Positions 6,645 through 37,459 of a DNA stretch of 64,000 nucleotides are shown in pieces (the stretch's first letter is position 1; every line of letters begins with the position of its first letter). The notes beneath the pieces are model-generated. The model saw only the letters and a program-made list of their open reading frames with translations. It was not told the origin of the DNA and did no database searches. The stretch is from an uncultured Bacteroidota bacterium (lineage in GTDB: Bacteria > Bacteroidota > Bacteroidia > Flavobacteriales > Flavobacteriaceae), in the NCBI GenBank assembly GCA_902626365.1, contig CACOFE010000001.1, forward strand, positions 62,001-126,000. The letters run 5' to 3'. The position numbers were made by a program, and so were the translations under genes.

Positions 6645-7865
6645 TTTAAAACTGGCAATATTAATTCTCTATTAATTAAAATATTTGAAGTCGGGCTAAG
6701 ACTATACGCTCCTTTTTCAAAAAAAATTGAAAAAGGTGTCTTGGGTAGAAAGAATAGTTTTAAAAAACTAAAATCATCATTTAAAAAAAGTGATAATATT
6801 ATACATGTTCACTGTGCATCTCACGGGGAATATTTAATGTCAGAGGAATTAATCACTCGTCTAAAGGATAAGTTTATCGATTATAAATTTCTCTTGTCAT
6901 TTATTTCACCTTCAGGCTATGAAAATGCTAATGTAGATTTATTTGATTGTGTGATTTATCTACCTCTTGAGTCTAATAAAAATTGTGTTGAATTTTATAA
7001 AATAATATCACCTAAGGCTACATTTTTTATTAAAAACGAAATTTGGCCAAATTTTATTAAACATGCAAAAATGAGTGGCTCAAAAGTTTACTCAGTGGGT
7101 GGTAATTTCTCGTCAAATTATTTAAAAAAATTATTTAAAATAAATTCAGCAATAAAAGAATTTGATTCCGTTTTTGTTTTAAACAAAAGGTCAAAAAAAA
7201 TAGTTGAGGATATCGGAAATCATAATGTAATTGTTGTTGGAGATTTAAGATATGACACTGTTATTCCAAAATTAAAAAATGAGACTAATGAAATTATAGA
7301 GAGATTTATTGACAACAATAATTGTATTGTTTTTGGAAGCACATGGAAAGAAGACGAAAACATAATTGTTAAATACATAAATAATTACAAAGGGAATACT
7401 AAATATATTATTGCTCCACATGAAATTGTCAAAAATTCAGAAAGAATTAAAAAGTGTTTAGGAAGTAAATCTATTTTATTTTCAAAAATTAATTCGAATA
7501 CTGACTTGAAAGAATTTTCATGTTTAATTATTGATAATGTAGGAATGTTATCATCATTATATTCATATGGTACGATTGCCTATGTTGGAGGAGGGATGGG
7601 AACGAAAGGACTACATAATATATTAGAGCCTGCCTACTTTTCCAAACCTATAATTATAGGAAAAAATTACAAGGGATTTGATGAGGCGGAAAAAATGATT
7701 AAGAATGGAAATGTGATTAGTATTTCAAATTATAGTGATTTTACTAATGAATTAGAATTGATTATTAATAATAAAAGTATAATCAAAGAGATGGCTAGTA
7801 AATGCACTGAATTTTTTAAGAAAAATAAAGGTGGGGTTAAATTAATTTTAAACAAACTACAATGA
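6642..7865 (+). CDS. waaA: 3-deoxy-D-manno-octulosonic acid (Kdo) transferase
   Basis: About 407 residues. It adds Kdo to the lipid A precursor at the inner membrane during LPS core assembly (GT30 family). Visible features are a membrane-associating N-terminal helix, the GRKNSF segment, HCASHGEYLMSEEL with the family's catalytic Glu (Glu63 from the TTG start), IKNEIWPNFIKHAK, APHEIVKNSERI, and the sugar-nucleotide-binding YVGGGMGTKGLHNILEPAYFSKPIIIGKNY. The start is unclear: the TTG at 6642 lies inside a TANNTTTG promoter box and no ATG follows near the N terminus. By comparison with family N termini, translation may begin near 6654-6663, possibly at an ATT. The 3' end overlaps the next gene by 4 bases (ATGA). 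Confidence 0.9.
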   Translation: MFKTGNINSLLIKIFEVGLRLYAPFSKKIEKGVLGRKNSFKKLKSSFKKSDNIIHVHCASHGEYLMSEELITRLKDKFIDYKFLLSFISPSGYENANVDLFDCVIYLPLESNKNCVEFYKIISPKATFFIKNEIWPNFIKHAKMSGSKVYSVGGNFSSNYLKKLFKINSAIKEFDSVFVLNKRSKKIVEDIGNHNVIVVGDLRYDTVIPKLKNETNEIIERFIDNNNCIVFGSTWKEDENIIVKYINNYKGNTKYIIAPHEIVKNSERIKKCLGSKSILFSKINSNTDLKEFSCLIIDNVGMLSSLYSYGTIAYVGGGMGTKGLHNILEPAYFSKPIIIGKNYKGFDEAEKMIKNGNVISISNYSDFTNELELIINNKSIIKEMASKCTEFFKKNKGGVKLILNKLQ

Positions 7866-9205
7866 AATATAAAATACAACATTATATAATAATATTACTT
7901 ATTACCAATTCAACCTTTTCACAGAGCGTTATTTTAGAATCTTTTGGCCCATCTTTTAATACACCTGTTGAAATTAAAAATGCTGGTGACGATAGGCTTT
8001 TTGTAGTTGAAAAGTCAGGAAAAATTAAAATTTTAAACCAAAATGGAAGTGTAAATTCTACCCCATTTTTAGATATTGAAGATAAAGTTTCAACCAATGC
8101 CAATGAAAGAGGTTTACTAGGTTTGGCATTTCATCCAAATTATCCTGAAAATCCATTTTTCTTTGTTAATTATACTAATAATAATGGTGATACAACAATT
8201 TCAAAATTCTCTGTAAGTTCAGATCAAGATATTGCTAACGATAATGAAACAATATTACTGGTAATAGATCAACCTTACGGGAATCATAACGGAGGTTGTA
8301 TAAATTTTGGTCCAGATGGAAATCTTTATATTGGAATGGGAGACGGCGGGAGTGGCGGTGACCCACAAAATTATTCACAAAATACAGGATCACTTCTAGG
8401 TAAGATGCTAAGAATAAATGTAAACAGTAGTGCTTATTCAATTCCAGAAAACAACCCTTATAATGATGAAATTTGGAGCATTGGCCTTAGAAATCCTTGG
8501 AAATTTAGCTTCGACAGTTTGAATGGTGATTTATGGATTGCTGATGTTGGTCAAAATGAATTTGAAGAAATTAATATGATTCAAGGAAATCCAGCCAACA
8601 TCAATTATGGATGGAGATGTTATGAAGGTAATGAGCCATATAATATGTCAGGATGCCCAGACGATGATGATTTAACTTTTCCAGTTGCTACTTATTCTCA
8701 TTATAATAGTGGTGACTTTAAATGTTCTGTAACTGGAGGATATATATATCGTGGTAATCAAATCTCAGGATTAAATGGTGTTTATTTTTTTGCTGACTAT
8801 TGTAGTGGAGAAATTGGCTTTCTTTCAAAAAATGATGAAGATAATTGGGAGATGAGCCTAGCATTTCCCAATATAAACGGAAGTTGGGTTTCGTTTGGTG
8901 AAGATATAAATGGTGAACTTTATATAGCATCAATTAACGGGGGAATTTATAAGATTGTAGATGCGGCACTTTCCAATAATGAAATTGAAAATAATTCGTT
9001 TAATTATTTCCCAAATCCGGTTGTAGATAAGTTAGAAATTCAATCTGATAATCCGCTTGATATTAAATTATATAATTTGTCTGGCATGTTAATTAAGAGT
9101 AATAATGGTCTTATCAACCAGACTTTAGATTTAAGTTATTTAAGTAGCGGTACTTATATATTAAAAATCAATAATTACCAATACAGAAAATTGCTTAAAA
9201 AATAA
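7862..9205 (+). CDS. Secreted PQQ-dependent sugar dehydrogenase-like beta-propeller with T9SS sorting domain
   Basis: 447 residues. The signal peptide ends near residue 20 (NSTFSQ). Residues about 30-365 form a glucose/sorbosone dehydrogenase-type six-bladed propeller: NERGLLGLAFHPNYPENP, NHNGG with His142 (the position of the catalytic His in soluble glucose dehydrogenase), LYIGMGDGGSGGDP and LRNPWKFSFD with Arg210. The last 70 residues (FNYFPNPVVDKLEI, then LYNLSGMLI and SGTYILKI) are a type A C-terminal sorting domain, so the enzyme should be exported by the type IX system and held on or released from the surface. The substrate is unknown. It is translationally coupled to waaA and followed by a hairpin at 9208-9230. 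Confidence 0.85.
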   Translation: MKYKIQHYIIILLITNSTFSQSVILESFGPSFNTPVEIKNAGDDRLFVVEKSGKIKILNQNGSVNSTPFLDIEDKVSTNANERGLLGLAFHPNYPENPFFFVNYTNNNGDTTISKFSVSSDQDIANDNETILLVIDQPYGNHNGGCINFGPDGNLYIGMGDGGSGGDPQNYSQNTGSLLGKMLRINVNSSAYSIPENNPYNDEIWSIGLRNPWKFSFDSLNGDLWIADVGQNEFEEINMIQGNPANINYGWRCYEGNEPYNMSGCPDDDDLTFPVATYSHYNSGDFKCSVTGGYIYRGNQISGLNGVYFFADYCSGEIGFLSKNDEDNWEMSLAFPNINGSWVSFGEDINGELYIASINGGIYKIVDAALSNNEIENNSFNYFPNPVVDKLEIQSDNPLDIKLYNLSGMLIKSNNGLINQTLDLSYLSSGTYILKINNYQYRKLLKK

Positions 9206-9233
9206 AAAAGGGAGTAAAAACTACTCCCTTAAT
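9206..9233. terminator. Hairpin between the sugar dehydrogenase gene and the 3' trp leader copy
   Basis: Inverted repeat GGGAGTA / TACTCCC with a 5-base loop (9210-9228). Read on the minus strand it is followed by a long T-rich run, so it is a good intrinsic terminator for transcription leaving the trp region. Read on the plus strand the tail is only TTAATT, so it ends the sugar dehydrogenase message less strongly. It stands where copy B of the trp leader has its own GC-rich hairpin. Confidence 0.75.
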
Positions 9234-9293
9234 TAAACATAAATAAATAAACAAACTAAAACTAATTACTAACTATATAACTTAAAATGTTAC

Positions 9294-9329
9294 AAAAAAA
9301 AAGCTTATCGTGATGATAAGCTTTTTTTT
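9294..9329 (-). terminator. Attenuator terminator of the 3' (orphan) trp leader copy
   Basis: Stem GCTTATC / GATAAGC with a 5-base loop, flanked by A9 and T8 runs, so it can work in both directions. It lies 23 bases after the stop codon of the WWW leader peptide at 9352-9408, exactly the layout of the attenuator upstream of trpE. No minus-strand gene lies downstream; the next thing is the second hairpin at 9208-9230. Confidence 0.85.
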
Positions 9330-9351
9330 AAATTAAAATATAGCAACTACC

Positions 9352-9408
9352 TCACGAAATGAATATTTCATGTTTCCACCACCACATATTTAATTGTAAT
9401 TTTTTCAT
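9352..9408 (-). CDS. trpL: Orphan trp leader peptide, second copy (3' of trpA)
   Basis: An 18-codon reading frame encoding MKKLQLNMWWWKHEIFIS, beginning 36 bases after the trpA stop. Three consecutive UGG codons (residues 9-11) make it a tryptophan-starvation sensor by design. It differs from the trpE-proximal copy only at residues 16-17 (F-I in place of L-V) plus one silent change, and keeps the TCG-TGA end that may form the antiterminator. As part of the trpA message it would be an eighth cistron. I see no gene it could regulate downstream on this strand. Intact frame and terminator argue against simple decay, though a recent duplication would look the same. Confidence 0.8.
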   Translation of the reverse strand: MKKLQLNMWWWKHEIFIS

Positions 9409-9444
9409 TGATGTAAATATAACAAACTATCTTAATAAAAAAAA

Positions 9445-10209
9445 TTAAATTTTAATTTGATTGATGAAATTGCGGATGTTTTTTAAACCATTTTTTTGAA
9501 TGTATTTTATAAAAGCGCTACCCACAATACAACCCTTTGAGTATTTACTAGCAATGACGAAATTTTCATTATTTGAAATTCCAAAACCAATAATTTTAGG
9601 TGTAGATAAATTCATTTTTTCTAATTTTCTGAAATAATTTATACTGTTTTCATTTAATTTATTTGTAGAGCCAGTTATACTTGATGAACTTACAACATAA
9701 AGAAATCCATCGCTATTTTTGTCTATATATTCTATTCTTTTTTTACTAGTTTGCGGAGTAATTAAAAATATATTTTGAAGCTGATTTTTTTCAAAAATTC
9801 TCTTATAATTTGAAAGGTAAATATCAATTGGTAAGTCAGGAATTATCAAGCCATCAATTCCAATTTCATTACACTTTTCACAAAATTCCTCAACTCCAAA
9901 TTGGAAAATAGGATTGAAATACCCCATAATTATTAAAGGAATATTGACATGATTTCTAATTTCTTTGAGTTGTTCAAACAAAATATTTGTTGATATTCCA
10001 TTATCTAATGCAATTTTTGAGCTCATCTGAATAGTCTCACCATCAGCTAAAGGGTCACTAAATGGTAAACCAATTTCAATCATATCCACACTAGCAGAAA
10101 CTAAATTTTTAATTATTTCAATTGTACTATTTAATTCAGGAAATCCTGCAGTAAAATATATTGACAAAATATCGTCTTTTTCTTTAAGAGTTTTGCTAAT
10201 TCTGTTCAT
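9445..10209 (-). CDS. trpA: Tryptophan synthase alpha chain
   Basis: 254 residues, TIM barrel. It cleaves indole-3-glycerol phosphate to indole and glyceraldehyde-3-phosphate and channels indole to TrpB. The catalytic acids are Glu45 in DMIEIGLPFSDP and Asp56 in LADGETIQ, matching Glu49/Asp60 of the enterobacterial enzyme. The phosphate-binding end (GFGISNN, then GCIVGSAFIK) is present. Its ATG overlaps the trpB stop by one base. It is the last structural gene of the operon; after its stop there are 36 bases to an orphan WWW leader peptide. Confidence 0.96.
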   Translation of the reverse strand: MNRISKTLKEKDDILSIYFTAGFPELNSTIEIIKNLVSASVDMIEIGLPFSDPLADGETIQMSSKIALDNGISTNILFEQLKEIRNHVNIPLIIMGYFNPIFQFGVEEFCEKCNEIGIDGLIIPDLPIDIYLSNYKRIFEKNQLQNIFLITPQTSKKRIEYIDKNSDGFLYVVSSSSITGSTNKLNENSINYFRKLEKMNLSTPKIIGFGISNNENFVIASKYSKGCIVGSAFIKYIQKNGLKNIRNFINQIKI

Positions 10210-11390
10210 TATATATTAAAATAATTTATATAATTCTCTAGATCTTTATCACCTCTACCTGAAAGGTTTAAAACAATTATATCAGTCGAATTAAATTTTT
10301 TATGATCAAATACTGCTAAAGCATGTGAGGTTTCAATAGCAGGAATAATTCCTTCAAGTTGTGACAATTGTAAACCAGCTGACATTGCCTCATCATCATC
10401 TATTGAAATAAACTCTCCTCTTCCAGTGCAAAATAAATTAGCATGCATAGGCCCTATTCCTGGATAATCTAATCCAGCTGAAATTGAATAGGGTTCAGTA
10501 ATTTGACCGTCATCGGTTTGCATAAGTAAGGTCTTACTACCATGTATAATTCCGGTTTTACCCAATTTTGTAGTCGCAGCTGATTTTCCAGAATTTACTC
10601 CTTTTCCAGATGCCTCAACACAAATAATTTTTACTCTTTCATCATCCAAATAATCATAAAACGTTCCAGCCGCATTACTTCCCCCACCTACACAAGCGAT
10701 TAAATAATCTGGGTAATTTCTTCTTTCAACTAAAAGAAGTTGCTCTTTAATCTCTTTCGAAATAACAGACTGAAATCTAGCAACCATGTCAGGAAAAGGA
10801 TGCGGTCCAACAACGCTCCCAACAATATAATGAGTATCAATTGGATTGTTAATCCAGTCTCTCATTGCTTCATTAGTCGCATCTTTTAAAGTTGAACTTC
10901 CAGATGTTACAGGAATGACATCAGCTCCTAACATTTTCATTCTTGCAACATTTGGAGCCTGTCTTTTAACGTCAGTAGCACCCATATATACGATACATTT
11001 TAAACCCATTAAAGCACAAACTGTTGCTGTAGCCACTCCATGTTGTCCTGCTCCAGTTTCAGCGATAATCCGCGATTTTTTTAATCTTTTTGCAAGGATT
11101 ATTTGTCCTATTGTATTGTTAATTTTATGGGCTCCTGTGTGATTTAGATCTTCTCTTTTTAAATATATTTTAGCTGAATATTTTTCTGATAAATTTTTTG
11201 AAAAATATAGTGGAGATGGCCTACCAACATAGTCTTTAAGCAATTGATTAAATTCTTGCTGAAAACTATCATCACTCATTATTTTAATATAATTTTCTTT
11301 AAGCTCATCAATATTATGTAAGAGCATTTCTGGAATATATGCGCCTCCAAAATCTCCGTAGTAACCTTTAGAATTTACATTATAACTCAT
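10209..11390 (-). CDS. trpB: Tryptophan synthase beta chain
   Basis: 393 residues, PLP enzyme that joins indole and serine to make tryptophan. Lys89 in [10 protein letters not shown] carries the PLP Schiff base (Lys87 in E. coli numbering), GGGSNAAG binds the cofactor phosphate, and GRGEF and the SGRGDKD tail are as in TrpB1 of standard operons. It overlaps trpF by 11 bases and trpA by 1 base, consistent with coupled translation giving alpha and beta in equal amounts. Confidence 0.97.
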
Positions 11391-11988
11391 TTTTAAAATT
11401 TTTAATTAATTCATAATCTTTTTTTGCATACTCAATTTCAAAGTGACTATTAATATCTATTGCTAAACAGTATTTTGAAATTGTTGAACTAAAAAAGTCT
11501 TTTAGTTCCTCTATATTGTGTAAACCAATACCACCACTTAAGAAATATGGTTTATTAAATTTATAGTTTGTTAAAATTTTCCAGTCAAAAGATATTCCAT
11601 TACCCCCCGGTAATTTTCCTTTTGTATCAAAAAGAAAATAATCGCATTTCATATAATTTTCAGTTGAATTAAAATTGAAATTTTTATCAATTGAAAAGGC
11701 TTTTATTATCTTAACATCTCGAATTTGTGATATAAAATCAGGTTTCTCATTTCCATGTAATTGCACCATATCTAAATTATATTTTTCAATAATAAAGTTT
11801 AGGTATTCGATTTCAGGATCAACAAAAACACCTACTTTTTTAATATTTTTATTAACTCTTGGTATTGGTTCATTATCGAAAAATCTTTTTGATTTATTAT
11901 AAAATATAAAGCCCATATAATCAGGGTTTAATTTTGAAATTAAACTGATATTATCATTATATTTCATGCCACATATTTTTAATTTCAT
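11380..11988 (-). CDS. trpF: Phosphoribosylanthranilate isomerase
   Basis: 202 residues, a stand-alone TIM barrel not fused to TrpC as it is in enterobacteria. It carries out the Amadori rearrangement of phosphoribosylanthranilate. Cys6 in KICGMK and Asp121 in [12 protein letters not shown] are the expected catalytic base and acid, and LSGGIG provides the phosphate site. It overlaps trpC by 4 bases and trpB by 11, inside the trpEGDCFBA operon. Confidence 0.95.
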
Positions 11989-12770
11989 ACTTCAATTTTT
12001 TTTATAAATTCGCTAGCAGCCAGGCCCGGATTTATTGTTTTCATAAAATATTCTCCAATTAAAAAACCATTGAACCCATATTTCCTTAAATCTTTGACAG
12101 TATTATAATTGTCAATTCCACTCTCTGAAATCTTTAAAAAATCACTAGGAATTTTTTTTGAGATTTTTTTTGAGATGTTTATATCTGTTTTAAATATTTT
12201 TAAATCCCTATTATTCACTCCGATCAAATCTATATAAGGATTCATCACCTTTTCTAGTTCATTCTCATTATGAATTTCTGCCAAGACTTCTAGATGTAAC
12301 TCATTAGCTAGCTTGGACAGCTTGAAAATTTCCTGTTTACTTAAAACTGAAGCAATTAATAAAATTACATCAGCGCCTATTGATTTTGATTCAACAATCT
12401 GAAATTCATCTAAAATAAAATCTTTTCTTAAAATTGGTCCTTCAAAAATTTCTCTAGCAATTTTTAAATCATCATTTGTCCCGCCAAAGAAATCAAAGTC
12501 TGTTAGAACTGAAATTCCACAAACTCCTGCATCTTGATATCCGCGAATCACCTCTTGTATTTTTAGTTCATTGTTGATGATATCTTTTGATGGAGATTTT
12601 CTTTTATGCTCTGCAATTATTCCAGAGATGCTTGATTTTAATTTGCTTTTTAAAGAAATAGTTTCTCTATCAAAAAATAAAGAAGACTCTAATTGACTTG
12701 TAGAATAATTTAGTTTGAGATGACTTATCTCATTTTTTTTGTGACGAATTATTTTATTCAAAACATTCAT
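11985..12770 (-). CDS. trpC: Indole-3-glycerol phosphate synthase
   Basis: 261 residues. It closes the indole ring from carboxyphenylaminodeoxyribulose phosphate. The hallmark IIAEHKRKSPSK (about residues 50-61) with catalytic Glu and Lys, the ILRKDFILDEFQI segment, GVNNRDL and SESGI at the barrel's C-terminal face are all present. The start ATG overlaps the trpD stop by 4 bases, so the gene is coupled to its neighbours. Confidence 0.96.
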   Translation of the reverse strand: MNVLNKIIRHKKNEISHLKLNYSTSQLESSLFFDRETISLKSKLKSSISGIIAEHKRKSPSKDIINNELKIQEVIRGYQDAGVCGISVLTDFDFFGGTNDDLKIAREIFEGPILRKDFILDEFQIVESKSIGADVILLIASVLSKQEIFKLSKLANELHLEVLAEIHNENELEKVMNPYIDLIGVNNRDLKIFKTDINISKKISKKIPSDFLKISESGIDNYNTVKDLRKYGFNGFLIGEYFMKTINPGLAASEFIKKIEV

Positions 12771-13762
12771 TTACTTAGTTCAATTAATGTGTTAAATGAT
12801 TTAAAGGCTTTTTTACTTAATAATGAGTCTTTTGCTAAGTCAAAAGCTTCAGAAATTCCAATTTCTTTTGCAGTAGAAATTGCCAAAGCAGAGTTTGCAA
12901 GAACCACATCAGTTTGCTCTTTCGTAGATCTCAAATTTAAAACATCAAGAAAAATTGAAGCAGCTTGCTCTATAGTATTACCACCAAAGATTTTTTCAGG
13001 GGAAATTATCTTTGAATCAAAATCTTTAGGTTTTATTAATAACTCATTATTATTTGAAACAACTTTTGAATCTCCTGTTAATGAAATTTCATCGTATCCA
13101 TCTAAAGAATGAACAATTGAATATTTAAATCCCCTAGTTGTTTCAAAAACAGATTTATAAAGTCTTAGAATATCCAATCCGTATACACCAACAAGTTGAT
13201 TATTTGGTCGACAAGGATTTACCAATGGACCTAAAATATTAAAAAATGTTTTCATTCCGAGTGCCTTTCTCACAGGTGCAACATTTTTCATTGCAGGATG
13301 AAATAATGGAGCATGTAAGACACATATATGGGCCTTATTTAAACAGGTTTTTAAAAAGTCTTCTTCATTTGTAAATTTTATACCAAAATACTCTAACACA
13401 TTGGATGAACCACAAGCTGAAGAAACAGAATAATTACCATGTTTTGCAACATGAATTCCTGCACCAGCTGTAACAAAAGATGCCAGGGTAGAAATATTAA
13501 ATGTATTTTTATTATCACCCCCGGTACCACACAAATCAATGGTTTTAAAATCACTAAAATCCAATTTTACACATAATTCTAGCAATGCATCTCTAAATCC
13601 AATTAGCTCATTTGTTGATGTTCCTCTTAACATAAAAACTGTCAAAAAAGAAGCAACCTGTTCATGATTATATTTTCCCATTGAAATATCAATAAGAATT
13701 TCTTTAGATTCTTTTTCATCTAAATTTTCATGATTTATTAATCTTGTTAAAATTTCTTTCAT
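12767..13762 (-). CDS. trpD: Anthranilate phosphoribosyltransferase
   Basis: 331 residues. It transfers the phosphoribosyl group of PRPP to anthranilate. The GTGGD motif (79-83) in DLCGTGGDNKNTFNIS binds PRPP, and KHGNYSVSSACGSSNVLE is the second family signature. It is a stand-alone enzyme, not fused to the TrpG glutaminase. One base separates it from trpG upstream, and it overlaps trpC downstream. Confidence 0.96.
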   Translation of the reverse strand: MKEILTRLINHENLDEKESKEILIDISMGKYNHEQVASFLTVFMLRGTSTNELIGFRDALLELCVKLDFSDFKTIDLCGTGGDNKNTFNISTLASFVTAGAGIHVAKHGNYSVSSACGSSNVLEYFGIKFTNEEDFLKTCLNKAHICVLHAPLFHPAMKNVAPVRKALGMKTFFNILGPLVNPCRPNNQLVGVYGLDILRLYKSVFETTRGFKYSIVHSLDGYDEISLTGDSKVVSNNNELLIKPKDFDSKIISPEKIFGGNTIEQAASIFLDVLNLRSTKEQTDVVLANSALAISTAKEIGISEAFDLAKDSLLSKKAFKSFNTLIELSK

Positions 13763-13763
13763 T

Positions 13764-14327
13764 TTAATTATTAATCCAGTTTTCTATAATTTTTTTTCCA
13801 TAAGGGGTTAAAATAGATTCAGGATGAAACTGAACTCCCTTAACGTCATATTGGGTATGTCTTATCGACATAATTTGCTTATTGTCATCAACAGACGTTA
13901 TTTCAAGTTGTTCAGAAATATTATCTACGACCCATGAATGATATCTGGCTGCCTGAAAATTATTTTTGAATCCATGAAAAATTGATTCGTCTTTTACACA
14001 AAGGTTTATGTTCGATGAAATTCCATGAAATACTTCATCTAAATTTTTCAAAGATCCACCATAAACTTCAGCAATAGCTTGTTGGCCGAGACATATTCCA
14101 AGAATACTTTTTGTTGGACCATACTTTTCAATTACTTTTTTCAATAGACCTGCCTCGTCGGGAATACCAGGGCCAGGCGATAATAAAATTTTATCAAATT
14201 TTGAAACATCATCTAAATCAAATTTATCATTTCTAACAACGGTTACATCATAATTCATTTCCTTAATTAGGTGTACCAAATTATAAGTAAAACTATCGTA
14301 ATTATCTATTACTAAAACCCTATTCAT
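13764..14327 (-). CDS. trpG: Anthranilate synthase component II (glutamine amidotransferase)
   Basis: 187 residues from the ATG at 14327, which gives the standard N terminus MNRVLVIDNYDSFTYN; an in-frame start 8 codons earlier would overlap trpE and adds nothing conserved. It supplies ammonia from glutamine to TrpE. The triad is Cys79 (GICLGQQ), His168 and Glu170 (FHPES). LSPGPGIP and the histidine of RYHSW are also present. It starts one base after the trpE stop codon. It could also serve para-aminobenzoate synthase, as some TrpG proteins do. Confidence 0.95.
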   Translation of the reverse strand: MNRVLVIDNYDSFTYNLVHLIKEMNYDVTVVRNDKFDLDDVSKFDKILLSPGPGIPDEAGLLKKVIEKYGPTKSILGICLGQQAIAEVYGGSLKNLDEVFHGISSNINLCVKDESIFHGFKNNFQAARYHSWVVDNISEQLEITSVDDNKQIMSIRHTQYDVKGVQFHPESILTPYGKKIIENWINN

Positions 14328-14328
14328 T

Positions 14329-15726
14329 TTATAATTTATCAGCCATTTCAATTGACTTTGTTAACGCATTTAATTTATTGTAAACCTCTTGTAATTCATT
14401 ATTTTCATCTGACTTATCTACGATACCAGCACCTGCTTGCCAATACAAAAAGTTATTTTTACTTAGGAAGGTTCTTATCATTATTGCATGATTAAAATCC
14501 CCGTTGAAATCTAAAATTCCTATTGCACCTCCATAATAACCTCTATTAGTTTTTTCATATTTTTCGATTAATGTCATAGCCATGTGTTTTGGAGCTCCAG
14601 AAAGAGTTCCAGCAGGAAAAGTGTCTGCAATTATTTTTAAATTTTTATCATTTGTATCCAGCTTACCGGTAACTTTACTTACTAAATGAATAACATGAGA
14701 GAAATATTGAACTTCTTTAAATTTTTCAACCTTAACAAGCTCACAATTCCTACTTAAATCATTTCTAGCAAGATCAACTAACATAACATGCTCACTTCCT
14801 TCTTTTGGGTCATTTAGCAGTTTTTCAGCAAGTATTTTATCCTCTGTTTCATTTCCAGTTCTTTTAAATGTACCTGCGATAGGGTGAATTTCAGCTAACT
14901 TTTGCTTGATAACAAGTTGGGCTTCCGGTGAACTACCAAAAATTTTGTAACCTCCATAATCAAAATAAAATAAGTAAGGGGAGGGGTTTATACTTCTTAA
15001 TGCTCTGTATACATTGAAGTCATCTCCAGAAAATTTTTGAGAAAATCGCCTAGATAAAACCAGTTGAAAAACGTCTCCTCTTTTACAATGATTCTTGGCA
15101 TAATTGACTTGTTTTATAAATTCTTTATCTGTTAGATTTGAATTTATATCATCAATAGAATTAAATTTATAATTACTTGAACTAGATACTTTTATAAGTT
15201 GATATATTTTGTCAATATTATTTTGCTCATCTGAAGAATGACAAAAAATATAAGCTTCATTCCTGAAATGATTAATTGCAATAATATTTTTATAAATACC
15301 ATAATACATTTCAGGAATTTTTACTGAATCTTCTTTCACACTAATTTCTAAATCCTCAAAATATTTTACAGCATCATAAGAGGTGTATCCAAAAAGACCG
15401 TTGCTAATGAATGGTAATTCAGATGATTCAACCTTAAATCGATTTATGAAATTTTGCAGTTCAATGATTAAATTTTCTTTAGAGCAAGAAATCTCATTGT
15501 TTGACTTGTCAGGAAATTTCGTTGATAGAATATCTTCAAAAACTTCAAAAGATGCAATCTGATTAAAGCATATATATGAGAAACTGTTATTATTTGAGTT
15601 GTAATCGCTACTCTCTAAGAGAAGGCTATTAGGATATTTATCTCTAATTCTTAAATAAACACTTACAGGCGTAATTGTGTCTACTAAAAATTTCTTTTTA
15701 TATGTCTTTAATCTAAATTTTTTCAT
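14329..15726 (-). CDS. trpE: Anthranilate synthase component I
   Basis: 465 residues. It converts chorismate to anthranilate, the first committed and feedback-inhibited step of tryptophan synthesis. The N-terminal LLES motif (residues 36-39) is the tryptophan-binding feedback site, so the enzyme is probably inhibited by the end product. C-terminal chorismate-binding blocks are present: HPIAGTFKRTG, EHVMLVDLARNDL, TLSGAPKHMAM and GAIGILDFNGDFNHAIMIRT. It is the first gene of the operon, preceded by a WWW leader peptide, a terminator and a GC-rich hairpin. Expression should therefore rise when charged tRNA-Trp falls. Confidence 0.97.
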   Translation of the reverse strand: MKKFRLKTYKKKFLVDTITPVSVYLRIRDKYPNSLLLESSDYNSNNNSFSYICFNQIASFEVFEDILSTKFPDKSNNEISCSKENLIIELQNFINRFKVESSELPFISNGLFGYTSYDAVKYFEDLEISVKEDSVKIPEMYYGIYKNIIAINHFRNEAYIFCHSSDEQNNIDKIYQLIKVSSSSNYKFNSIDDINSNLTDKEFIKQVNYAKNHCKRGDVFQLVLSRRFSQKFSGDDFNVYRALRSINPSPYLFYFDYGGYKIFGSSPEAQLVIKQKLAEIHPIAGTFKRTGNETEDKILAEKLLNDPKEGSEHVMLVDLARNDLSRNCELVKVEKFKEVQYFSHVIHLVSKVTGKLDTNDKNLKIIADTFPAGTLSGAPKHMAMTLIEKYEKTNRGYYGGAIGILDFNGDFNHAIMIRTFLSKNNFLYWQAGAGIVDKSDENNELQEVYNKLNALTKSIEMADKL

Positions 15727-15737
15727 TTTTACTTCTT

Positions 15738-15761
15738 AATGGGGGCTTTTACACCCCCGTT
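15738..15761 (-). other. GC-rich hairpin just upstream of trpE
   Basis: Stem AATGGGGG / CCCCCGTT (8 pairs, one T-G) with an 8-base loop, ending 11 bases before the trpE ATG. On the minus strand no U tract follows, so it is not a terminator. It could mark a 5' processing or stability site or limit access to the trpE start. The orphan leader copy has a hairpin (9208-9230) in the corresponding place, but there it has a terminator-type tail. Confidence 0.55.
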
Positions 15762-15790
15762 AAAAAAACAAACTAAAACCAATCATGAAC

Positions 15791-15823
15791 AAAAAAAAAG
15801 CTTATCGTGATGATAAGCTTTTT
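15791..15823 (-). terminator. trp attenuator terminator
   Basis: Stem AAAAAGCTTATC / GATAAGCTTTTT around a 5-base loop, followed on the minus strand by nine T. It lies 25 bases after the leader peptide stop codon and 64 bases before trpE. The loop and 3' stem contain TCACGA (bases 15805-15810), complementary to TCGTGA at the leader's end (15849-15854). Pairing of those two would break the terminator when a ribosome stalls on the Trp codons. Confidence 0.88.
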
Positions 15824-15848: not shown

Positions 15849-15905
15849 TCACGAAACTAAAATTTCATGTTTCCACCACCACATATTTAATTGTAATTTT
15901 TTCAT
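15849..15905 (-). CDS. trpL: trp operon leader peptide
   Basis: 18 codons encoding MKKLQLNMWWWKHEILVS, with three consecutive UGG codons at positions 9-11. It lies in the leader of trpE on the same strand, 123 bases upstream of the trpE ATG, and is followed by an intrinsic terminator. This is the classical layout in which ribosome stalling at Trp codons prevents terminator folding and lets RNA polymerase enter the operon. In Bacteroidota, leader peptides with runs of Trp before trpE are expected by analogy with other amino-acid attenuators. Too short for routine gene callers. No strong -7 box is visible upstream; TATATTTA at 15908-15915 is closest but very near the ATG. Confidence 0.9.
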   Translation of the reverse strand: MKKLQLNMWWWKHEILVS

Positions 15906-34887: not shown

Positions 34888-37459
34888 TTCTGATAGACTG
34901 AATAAAAAGTGCTCATTTGTAGCTTGCTTTATGCTGCTTCCACTAATGTTCTTTTTATCAATATCATCATATTCTCAAAATAATGTTGAAAGATATAATA
35001 TAGGTAAAATTGAAGTTACAGGAAATACATCGTTTAGCCCTATTACTATAGTTACCTTTTCTGGATTAAGGGAAGGTGATGCCATAAGTATTCCAGGAGA
35101 GAAATTGAGTAATGCTATAAAAAAACTGTGGGGTTCTAACCTATTTAGATCTGTAGATGTTTATAAGACTAGGGTTGAAGATGGTATAATTGACCTTGAA
35201 ATAGAATTATATGATCTTCCCGAATTGACAGATTTGTCAGTAACAGGGGTAAAAAAAAGAAAAATTGAAGAAATAATAAAAGAAAATAAACTTCAAACTG
35301 GAGTAAAGGTAACCGAAAACTTAATTACTACTACAAAAAATTATTTAGAAAATAAATACAAAAAGAAGGGATTTCTTAATGCAAAAGTTATCATAAAAAC
35401 CGAAGAAGTTGTGGACTCCTCAAAAAAATCTAAAGTTAAAATGACATTAGATATTGTAAAGGGTAATAAAATCAAGATAAACGAAATTAATTTTAACGGA
35501 ATTAGCGAGCTCAAGGCTAAAACTCTTGAAAAAGCTATGAAAAACACCAAAAGAAGAAAATTCTATAGAATTTTTAAGAGATCAAAGTATGTTCCAGATG
35601 ATTTTAAAGAAGATCTTTCTAGCCTAATCGATAAGTATAAAGAAAATGGGTTTAGAGATGCAAGAATAATTTCAGACACAATTTTAAACAATGATGATAA
35701 GGAAATTGACGTATCCATCTCACTAATTGAGGGGTCAAAGTATACTTTTGGAAAAATACAATATCTAGGTAATAGTGTATATACAGATCAACAACTTAAT
35801 CAAATTTTAAAAATTAAAGAAGGAGATACATATAACGGCGTAGAATTGGAAAAAAGAATTGCAGATAGATCTGACCCTGATGCTGATGATTTAAGTAATC
35901 TTTATCAAAATAATGGATATTTATTTTCATCAATTACCCCTGTTGAAGTAAACGCAGACGGAAATATAATTGATTTAGAAATTAGAATTAACGAGGGAAA
36001 GCCTGCTTACTTTAACAAGATTTCTGTTGTTGGAAATAATAAGACTAATGATCATGTGATTTATAGAGAAATAAGAACAAGGCCAGGTCAGTTGTACAGT
36101 AAAGCTAACGTATTTAGATCATTAAGAGAGCTTGGTCAATTAGGGTTTTTTGATCCTCAATTAATTTCACCTGATTTTAAAAATATTAATCCTAATGACG
36201 GGACAGTTGATCTTGAATATACTCTTGTAGAAACTGGATCTAGCCAAATTGAACTGCAAGGTGGTTATGGTGGTGGTGGATTTATAGGTACTATTGGACT
36301 ATCTTTTAACAATTTCTCGATTAAAGACATTTTCAAAAAAGAAGCATATACCCCAATTCCTATGGGTGATGGTCAAAGATTAGCCTTGAGATTACAAGCA
36401 AGTAGATTTTATACTGTAAACAGCTTCAATTTTACAGAACCCTGGCTAGGAGGTAAAAGGCCTGTTCAATTTTCTGTTCAATTATCTCAAACAAAGCAGT
36501 TCATGTTTAATCCTTATAATTACACTGCGGACAAATCTAGATATTTTAATATTTCCGGAGTTTCTGTAGGTTTAGCAAAAAGACTAACTGTTCCAGATGA
36601 TTATTTTACTTTATCTCAATTCATTGGATTTCAATATTATGATTTGAATGAATATAATACGGGACTTTTTACTTTTGGTAATGGATCATCTAACAATTTA
36701 TCTTATACAGTTGCTTTAAGCAGGAATAATACATACACTGATCCAATATATCCAACCGGAGGTTCTAACTTCACACTATCTGCTAAACTAACTTTTCCTT
36801 ACTCAGCATTTAACGATGTTGATTATAAAGCTTTAAAAGATGAAAGAGATGATCTAGTAGATCAACTAGGAGTAGATCCTACTAACACATCGGCTGGAGA
36901 TAGAATAGCTGAAATTGATCAAGAAAGATATAAATGGCTTGAGTTTTATAAAATCAAATTTAAGGGTGAATGGTTTACAGCTCTTACCAAGAAACTAGTA
37001 TTAAGGCCTTCCTTTGAATTTGGTTTCCTTGGAGCATATAACAATGACAGAGGTGTAATTCCTTTTGAAAGATTTTTTCTAGGTGGAGATGGAATGGGAA
37101 TGTATAATCTTGATGGTAGAGAAAATATTCCTTTAAGAGGTTACCCAAATCAGTCATTATCAGCACAAGACGGAGGATCAATTTATAATAAATATTCTCT
37201 AGAATTAAGATATCCAATAAGTCTTGGTGAACAAGCAAAAATATTTGCATTAACATTTTTAGAAGGTGGATCATCATACAATAGTTTTAGAGATTTTGAC
37301 CCATTCTTACTTAAAAGATCTGCTGGAATTGGTGTTCGTTTATTTATGCCGCAATTTGGACTTTTAGGAATTGATTTTGGTCACGGTTTTGACCCTGTAC
37401 CTGGGCAGTCATCAAAGCATGGCTGGGAAACACACTTTATATTTGGTCAAAACTTTTAA
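34859..37459 (+). CDS. bamA: Outer-membrane protein assembly factor BamA
   Basis: Up to 866 residues. A hydrophobic signal region (FMLLPLMFFLSISSYSQ) ends about residue 40. Five POTRA-like repeats follow to about residue 450, and then the 16-strand barrel, ending in LGIDFGHGFDPVPG and a terminal Phe (HFIFGQNF), the usual outer-membrane sorting end. BamA folds and inserts barrel proteins. The start is uncertain: TTG at 34859 or GTG at 34871, both inside the end of uppS; no ATG precedes the signal peptide. The two skp genes next to it encode helper chaperones. Confidence 0.93.
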   Translation: MEKPVNRLNNSDRLNKKCSFVACFMLLPLMFFLSISSYSQNNVERYNIGKIEVTGNTSFSPITIVTFSGLREGDAISIPGEKLSNAIKKLWGSNLFRSVDVYKTRVEDGIIDLEIELYDLPELTDLSVTGVKKRKIEEIIKENKLQTGVKVTENLITTTKNYLENKYKKKGFLNAKVIIKTEEVVDSSKKSKVKMTLDIVKGNKIKINEINFNGISELKAKTLEKAMKNTKRRKFYRIFKRSKYVPDDFKEDLSSLIDKYKENGFRDARIISDTILNNDDKEIDVSISLIEGSKYTFGKIQYLGNSVYTDQQLNQILKIKEGDTYNGVELEKRIADRSDPDADDLSNLYQNNGYLFSSITPVEVNADGNIIDLEIRINEGKPAYFNKISVVGNNKTNDHVIYREIRTRPGQLYSKANVFRSLRELGQLGFFDPQLISPDFKNINPNDGTVDLEYTLVETGSSQIELQGGYGGGGFIGTIGLSFNNFSIKDIFKKEAYTPIPMGDGQRLALRLQASRFYTVNSFNFTEPWLGGKRPVQFSVQLSQTKQFMFNPYNYTADKSRYFNISGVSVGLAKRLTVPDDYFTLSQFIGFQYYDLNEYNTGLFTFGNGSSNNLSYTVALSRNNTYTDPIYPTGGSNFTLSAKLTFPYSAFNDVDYKALKDERDDLVDQLGVDPTNTSAGDRIAEIDQERYKWLEFYKIKFKGEWFTALTKKLVLRPSFEFGFLGAYNNDRGVIPFERFFLGGDGMGMYNLDGRENIPLRGYPNQSLSAQDGGSIYNKYSLELRYPISLGEQAKIFALTFLEGGSSYNSFRDFDPFLLKRSAGIGVRLFMPQFGLLGIDFGHGFDPVPGQSSKHGWETHFIFGQNF

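Follow-up and report, generated by a model that had tools for sequence, protein, structure and literature searches.

What is a tryptophan attenuator doing behind a trp operon, with no gene after it to control, and how did it come to lie there? The question is raised by a 64,000-nt stretch of DNA from an uncultured member of the Flavobacteriaceae (genome G000; hereafter the whole stretch is called the window), in which the trpEGDCFBA operon (9445–15726, minus strand) is followed, directly 3' of the trpA stop codon (9447–9445) and on the same strand, by a second trp leader. As a preliminary description had stated, its leader ORF (9352–9408, minus strand; MKKLQLNMWWWKHEIFIS) is intact, with 18 codons, three consecutive tryptophan codons (WWW) and a TGA stop. 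The promoter-like box TATATTTA (9414–9421, minus strand), almost invariant in the alignment of leaders from the genus, lies 5 nt upstream of the ATG and about 25 nt from the trpA stop, and it resembles TAnnTTTG, which we take to be the Bacteroidota −7 motif. An antiterminator box, TCGTGA (9352–9357, minus strand), overlaps the stop codon and is the complement of TCACGA in the attenuator terminator T1 (9294–9329, minus strand), which consists of a stem at 9303–9321 and the A/T flanks already described. Beyond the spacer (9229–9293, minus strand) follows a second terminator-like hairpin, T2 (9200–9228, minus strand), whose stem was found at 9210–9228 (9208–9230 in the preliminary description) and which carries a U tract on the leader strand, like the stand-alone alleles discussed below. 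The spacer has no substitution in 65 positions relative to G004, and is expected to be transcribed only on read-through. A TTAGTTTTAGTTTG-like stretch between T1 and the second hairpin (9229–9293, and 15760–15790 in the leader before trpE) recurs in stand-alone and operon alleles.

No ORF of at least 90 amino acids is present on the leader strand from 9445 to 6591, and the next gene (7862–9205, plus strand) is convergent, as had been noted; T1 and T2 could also act for this gene. It encodes a glucose/sorbosone dehydrogenase (GSDH) domain with a secretion-system C-terminal sorting tail, and the dehydrogenase was not found beside the locus in some relatives, for example G007 and G009. The leader before trpE has its ORF at 15849–15905 (minus strand; MKKLQLNMWWWKHEILVS), its T1 hairpin at 15800–15818 (minus strand) and, before the trpE start, a hairpin at the T2 position (15741–15758, minus strand) that lacks a U tract. 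The near-identity of the two leaders claimed earlier amounts to 90.1% over 161 nt (BLASTN, E about 2e-58), or 95% over 130 nt in the whole-genome search. Only these two copies gave full leader matches in the G000 assembly (1.30 Mb, 68% complete, contamination estimate 0), and a dispersed repeat family was rejected for that reason. WWW is present in the two window leaders and in each of the 19 genus leaders compared; elsewhere in the window, four consecutive TGG triplets occur at 36267 (plus strand).

Several properties identify the element as a candidate ribosome-mediated attenuator. The 129-nt leader RNA has a folding energy of −29.4 kcal/mol (z = −4.65; none of 200 shuffles was equally good), and in its predicted minimum-free-energy structure the WWW codons lie on one arm of a large leader helix, the box lies in an inner helix, and T1 is formed as well. 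Across 21 sequences, 94.1% of cells are paired in the T1 stem with its U tract and 87.7% in the whole structure, compared with 41–50% in slid versions of it. Eight pairs have both partners changed, where shuffles give 4.0 and 1 of 500 comes as high, although one of the 21 sequences itself supplied the structure and one slid version also had eight double-changed pairs; pair types showed no excess over shuffles (258 of 500 as high). The antiterminator pairing UCGUGA–UCACGA is formed by 91.3% of cells in the 21 leaders, the shuffle control for these 6 bp being weak (20 of 500; covariation score 12 of 500). Furthermore, boxes pair better with the hairpin of their own leader than with swapped ones (mean −13.99 versus −12.81, sd 0.14, 40 swaps), and the longest Watson–Crick run is 6.45 in own versus 5.95 in swapped combinations (best of 200 swaps, 6.11); these values come from 128 of 155 leaders, with relatedness uncontrolled and with one chance-like hit, L194, among them. 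The set of 155 excludes a near-duplicate genus leader (L036), and 27 leaders were dropped because the parser accepted only leaders with a perfect stem and two TGG codons side by side. The predicted antiterminator and terminator are thus mutually exclusive, the arrangement by which a ribosome-mediated trp attenuator is recognized. An Rfam scan of the window at the gathering threshold returned two tRNAs only and no match at either leader, including to the Trp_leader model (presumably RF00513). The leader before trpE precedes a Trp biosynthesis gene; the 3' copy precedes none.

A covariance model built from 21 leaders matched 352 of 397 Flavobacteriaceae genomes, seven of them twice. Outside the genus, 137 hits were examined, chosen as the best-scoring, small-genome and two-hit cases among the matching genomes, and trpE was the next trp gene in 131 of them, its BLAST match beginning at a median distance of 21 nt; five were chance-like and one lay before trpB2 (G209, in which the best trpE match is 28% identical). 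Five second hits in two-hit genomes (L192–L196) were attributed to chance, since neither a Trp-run peptide nor a trp gene could be found with them. None of the 137 hits was a stand-alone leader, and the other matching genomes may hold some.

The picture is different within the genus, for which we compared 21 genomes, none of them 90% complete (the DNA search covered 60 genomes, and 17 regions were annotated). A strong leader match was obtained in 17 of the 21, and the locus lies between a DEAD-box helicase gene and the GSDH/kdtA genes. The leader stands alone in seven (G001, G002, G003, G004, G007, G012 and G013), precedes trpEGDCFBA in eight (G005, G006, G008, G009, G011, G014, G016 and G019), precedes trpB2 in one (G020; TIGR01415, 623 bits), and flanks the operon on both sides in G000 only. 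One attenuator at one locus is therefore found with three cargo states: operon, trpB2 or none. Four genomes gave no leader match: in G017 a contig end truncates the trp operon, and no leader lies behind trpA; G010, G015 and G018 are 56–66% complete. In the eight operon-free genomes no trpE was detected (best matches 24–27% identical, or none) and no trpB proper (28–30%, or none; the 36% match in G020 is TrpB2); these organisms are presumably tryptophan auxotrophs, a reading that we keep conditional because their assemblies are 63–86% complete. In more distant relatives that share the neighbouring genes (L065, L066, L068 and L079; helicase 67–79% identical), neither a trp gene match nor a Trp-run ORF was found in the interval between the GSDH and helicase genes.

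The trp leader before a trpB2-like gene was seen in two genera (L044:7120–8508, minus strand, and L271:1455–2816, plus strand); the gene product in G020 belongs to TIGR01415, that in G209 has a similar N-terminus and a PALP domain, and both genomes lack a close trpE. This combination suggests the use of indole under tryptophan attenuation.

The preliminary description had called an attenuator with nothing to attenuate unusual, and among the operon-bearing genomes seen in the genus a copy behind trpA indeed occurs in G000 alone. Seven of the eight others with a leader have a single strong leader match, and the eighth, G006, has two, each before trpE on its own contig; the region on one of these contigs stops in or before trpA. 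The two trp loci of G006 (MED649 assembly, contamination 6%) are on contigs C12 and C31 and perhaps represent two strains in one bin. What recurs in relatives is the leader unit without an operon, not the operon with a leader at its 3' end.

The history of the locus was read from the divergence of the operon and its flanks. By its flanks, G000 is closest to the operon-free G004 (DEAD-box gene 98% and GSDH gene 95% identical; fourfold-site divergence of the DEAD-box gene 0.20). Relative to the operon-bearing G005, G016 and G006, its helicase gene diverges by 0.44–0.62 at fourfold sites and its trp genes by only 0.11–0.12, a comparison in which rates may differ between genes. Nearly identical operons thus accompany distant helicase genes, so that the species sharing these operons are distant, and the trp operon appears to have been exchanged between species of the genus; that of G000, of which trpE, trpB and trpA were scanned, was probably acquired horizontally.

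The two leaders of G000 have different affinities. Over the 120 positions from +90 onwards, which span T1 to T2, the 3' leader has no substitution relative to G004; the two differ by 1 nt in the length of the T1 U run and at 4 of 57 ORF positions, and they group together in the leader tree with a support of 91. The trpE leader and that of G005 agree at 145 of the 146 positions between +60 and trpE, and in the 120 nt upstream of the leader (−120 to −1) G000 differs from G004 at eight positions and from G005 at 16. The other end of the operon carries a candidate junction, AAATTAAAAT (9449–9458, minus strand), a 10-bp microhomology common to the donor-type trpA 3' end and to the G004-type DNA upstream of the leader. 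The trpA genes of G005 and G006 continue past CAATCAAATTAAAAT and end about two codons later beside the GSDH gene; at the same point trpA of G000 switches to DNA like that upstream of stand-alone leaders and then stops, and is thereby shortened, ending about two codons early.

Given the T1–T2 match to G004, the mismatch between operon and flank divergence and the 10-bp junction, a resident leader was most likely already in place when the operon arrived. We place the probability at roughly 0.7 that what lies behind trpA is a resident Flavobacteriaceae trp attenuator of the operon-free kind, next to which an operon was inserted later. On this account, the ancestor of G000 would have carried a leader alone at the locus, with its own second terminator; a trp operon from another species would then have been inserted, together with its own leader, just upstream of the resident one, through a homologous crossover in or near the leader at one end and the microhomology at the trpA 3' end at the other, and the resident leader would have been left behind as a 3' orphan. 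The reverse order, in which recombination between two leaders removed an operon from G004, is the less likely one: the operon divergence (0.11–0.12) is smaller than that between the helicase genes of G000 and G004 (0.20), and the trpA junction of G000 is the odd one out. The two-leader arrangement itself is represented by one draft genome.

The mechanism that we infer from anatomy and comparison is a tryptophan-dependent switch. When tryptophan is ample, the ribosome would reach the UGA and cover the UCGUGA box, so that T1 could form and release an RNA of about 115 nt; when tryptophan is scarce, the ribosome would stall at WWW, the box would pair with UCACGA of T1, and polymerase would continue to T2, giving an RNA of about 200–210 nt. 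In operon-free cells the stand-alone leader would then be a free tryptophan-switched small RNA, and behind trpA it would define the 3' end of the operon.

Whether stand-alone leaders are kept by function was evaluated first of all in the leaders of G012, G013, G003 and G002 (the F group), a cluster without an operon-bearing member (support 72). Here the 29 critical sites, covering the ATG, WWW, stop and stem, carry no change against 31 changes at 107 other sites (Fisher P = 1.9e-4; P = 7.9e-4 relative to ORF and linker sites only; P = 0.025 for ATG, WWW and stop, and P = 0.032 for the T1 stem), in a test designed after the alignment was seen. The helicase gene intermixes F-group genomes with the operon-bearing G006 and G014, so the stand-alone history of the group is deduced from the leaders' own clustering. 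In G013, G003 and G002 the box has changed, and with the older hairpin its predicted pairing weakens from −9.9 to −4.1 for the G013 box and to −5.8 for the G002 box; a loop change common to G013 and G003 brings it to −8.5, and a different one in G002 to −8.4. Loop changes giving −7 or better number 3 of 15 with the G013 box and 2 of 15 with the G002 box, and by these predictions the antiterminator pairing of the F group is restored by compensation. In stand-alone alleles a U tract, which is imperfect in G012, also follows the T2 hairpin, whereas operon alleles have a hairpin at the T2 position with no such tract, or with TTTT only in G008 and G011. Across eight alleles the ORF showed no indel, while 29 of the 66 spacer columns contain gaps.

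These features count against the strongest competing explanation, by which stand-alone leaders are neutral leftovers of frequent operon loss, refreshed by recombination among leaders and idle as orphans. It draws on the apparent exchange of the operon between species and on the peptide of the stand-alone G007 leader, which is the same as that of the operon-bearing G005, so that recombination can refresh L-type leaders; the stand-alone ones among these (the near pair G000–G004 aside) differ at 2–12 of 128–129 positions despite helicase divergences of 0.53–0.63. Between G013 and G003 (L047 and L049) seven leader positions differ and none of 178 in the upstream region, spacer and T2, so the leader has changed faster than its surroundings. 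The F-group changes are spread evenly over codon positions (3, 2 and 4), which also leaves a conserved trans-acting peptide unsupported; outside WWW the peptide looks unconstrained. Stand-alone leaders differ at 11–13 of 129 positions at helicase divergences of 0.30–0.39 and attached ones at 4–9 of 127–129 at trp divergences of 0.35–0.39; judged by these linked divergences, measured on different genes, the former are no more conserved than the latter and have diverged at least as far. We regard idle leftovers as a real but rather doubtful possibility, and would give the stand-alone copies slightly worse than even odds of being functional. Tentatively, and with a little less than half our confidence, we propose that the stand-alone leader serves as a free gene for a tryptophan-switched sRNA in apparent auxotrophs, a sensor that has outlived its operon, and also as a fixed socket for trp cargo (operon or trpB2) exchanged by gene transfer.

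The remaining explanations concern the G000 arrangement itself. The preliminary description had offered a tryptophan-chosen 3' end of the message, or a further cistron whose ribosome stalling protects the mRNA; both are physically possible in G000, and a functional 3' end would suit an intact leader placed directly behind trpA, with only about 25 nt separating the stop codon from the promoter-like box. The copy was found in none of the other operon-bearing genomes of the genus, however, so conservation gives these proposals no support, and insertion beside a resident leader already explains the 3' copy; we consider them unlikely. A chimera of DNA from two cells or strains, formed in assembly or amplification, would account for a microhomology junction seen in a single genome, and amplification chimeras can join DNA at microhomologies if this is a single-amplified genome; yet the contamination estimate is 0, both flanks come from one species as judged from G004, and each leader lies in a consistent context, which makes a chimera improbable. 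The scar of a tandem operon duplication with one copy lost, also proposed in the preliminary description, would suit the 90% identity of the two leaders but is very improbable; it was rejected on the leader tree and the piecewise comparison with G004, in that the 3' leader matches the allele that stands alone in relatives without the operon, is followed by their spacer and T2 and not by operon DNA, and the operon looks like the newcomer.

Resident before the operon or not, the element resembles known systems. With the E. coli trpL type it shares a short ORF with consecutive Trp codons and competing leader, antiterminator and terminator pairings; it differs in three respects: the leader can occur with no structural gene, a second terminator belongs to it, and its promoter-like box suggests a transcription start at or near the AUG. 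This −7-like box, which is conserved in the genus leaders at 5 nt from the ATG, might reflect a promoter of the leader's own and a leaderless start, as in the rnTrpL type. In Sinorhizobium meliloti, the attenuated trp leader is a separate small RNA (rnTrpL, encoding peTrpL) whose 5' end is at the uORF ATG and which acts in trans (PMC7298713), a precedent for trans action; that leader still stands before trpE(G), whereas the stand-alone copies here have no trp genes behind them. Leader-peptide attenuators of the same general proposed mechanism are reported upstream of amino-acid operons in Flavobacterium psychrophilum, a member of the same family, in a paper whose main text contains neither trp nor tryptophan and whose passages on the subject name no stand-alone copies (PMC9723704). 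Our literature search, which covered few subscription journals, returned no paper on orphan attenuators and none on a tryptophan leader-peptide attenuator in Flavobacteria. The mechanism is of a known kind; the stand-alone form in apparent tryptophan auxotrophs and the plug-in history of the locus were not found in the literature searched.

Attenuators are usually taught as parts of operons. Here, an attenuator is found without an operon in several species and with varied cargo in others, and an independent life of the attenuator as a sensor RNA becomes testable. The locus further offers a natural record of how a pathway, along with its regulation, may be recovered by cells that lack it.
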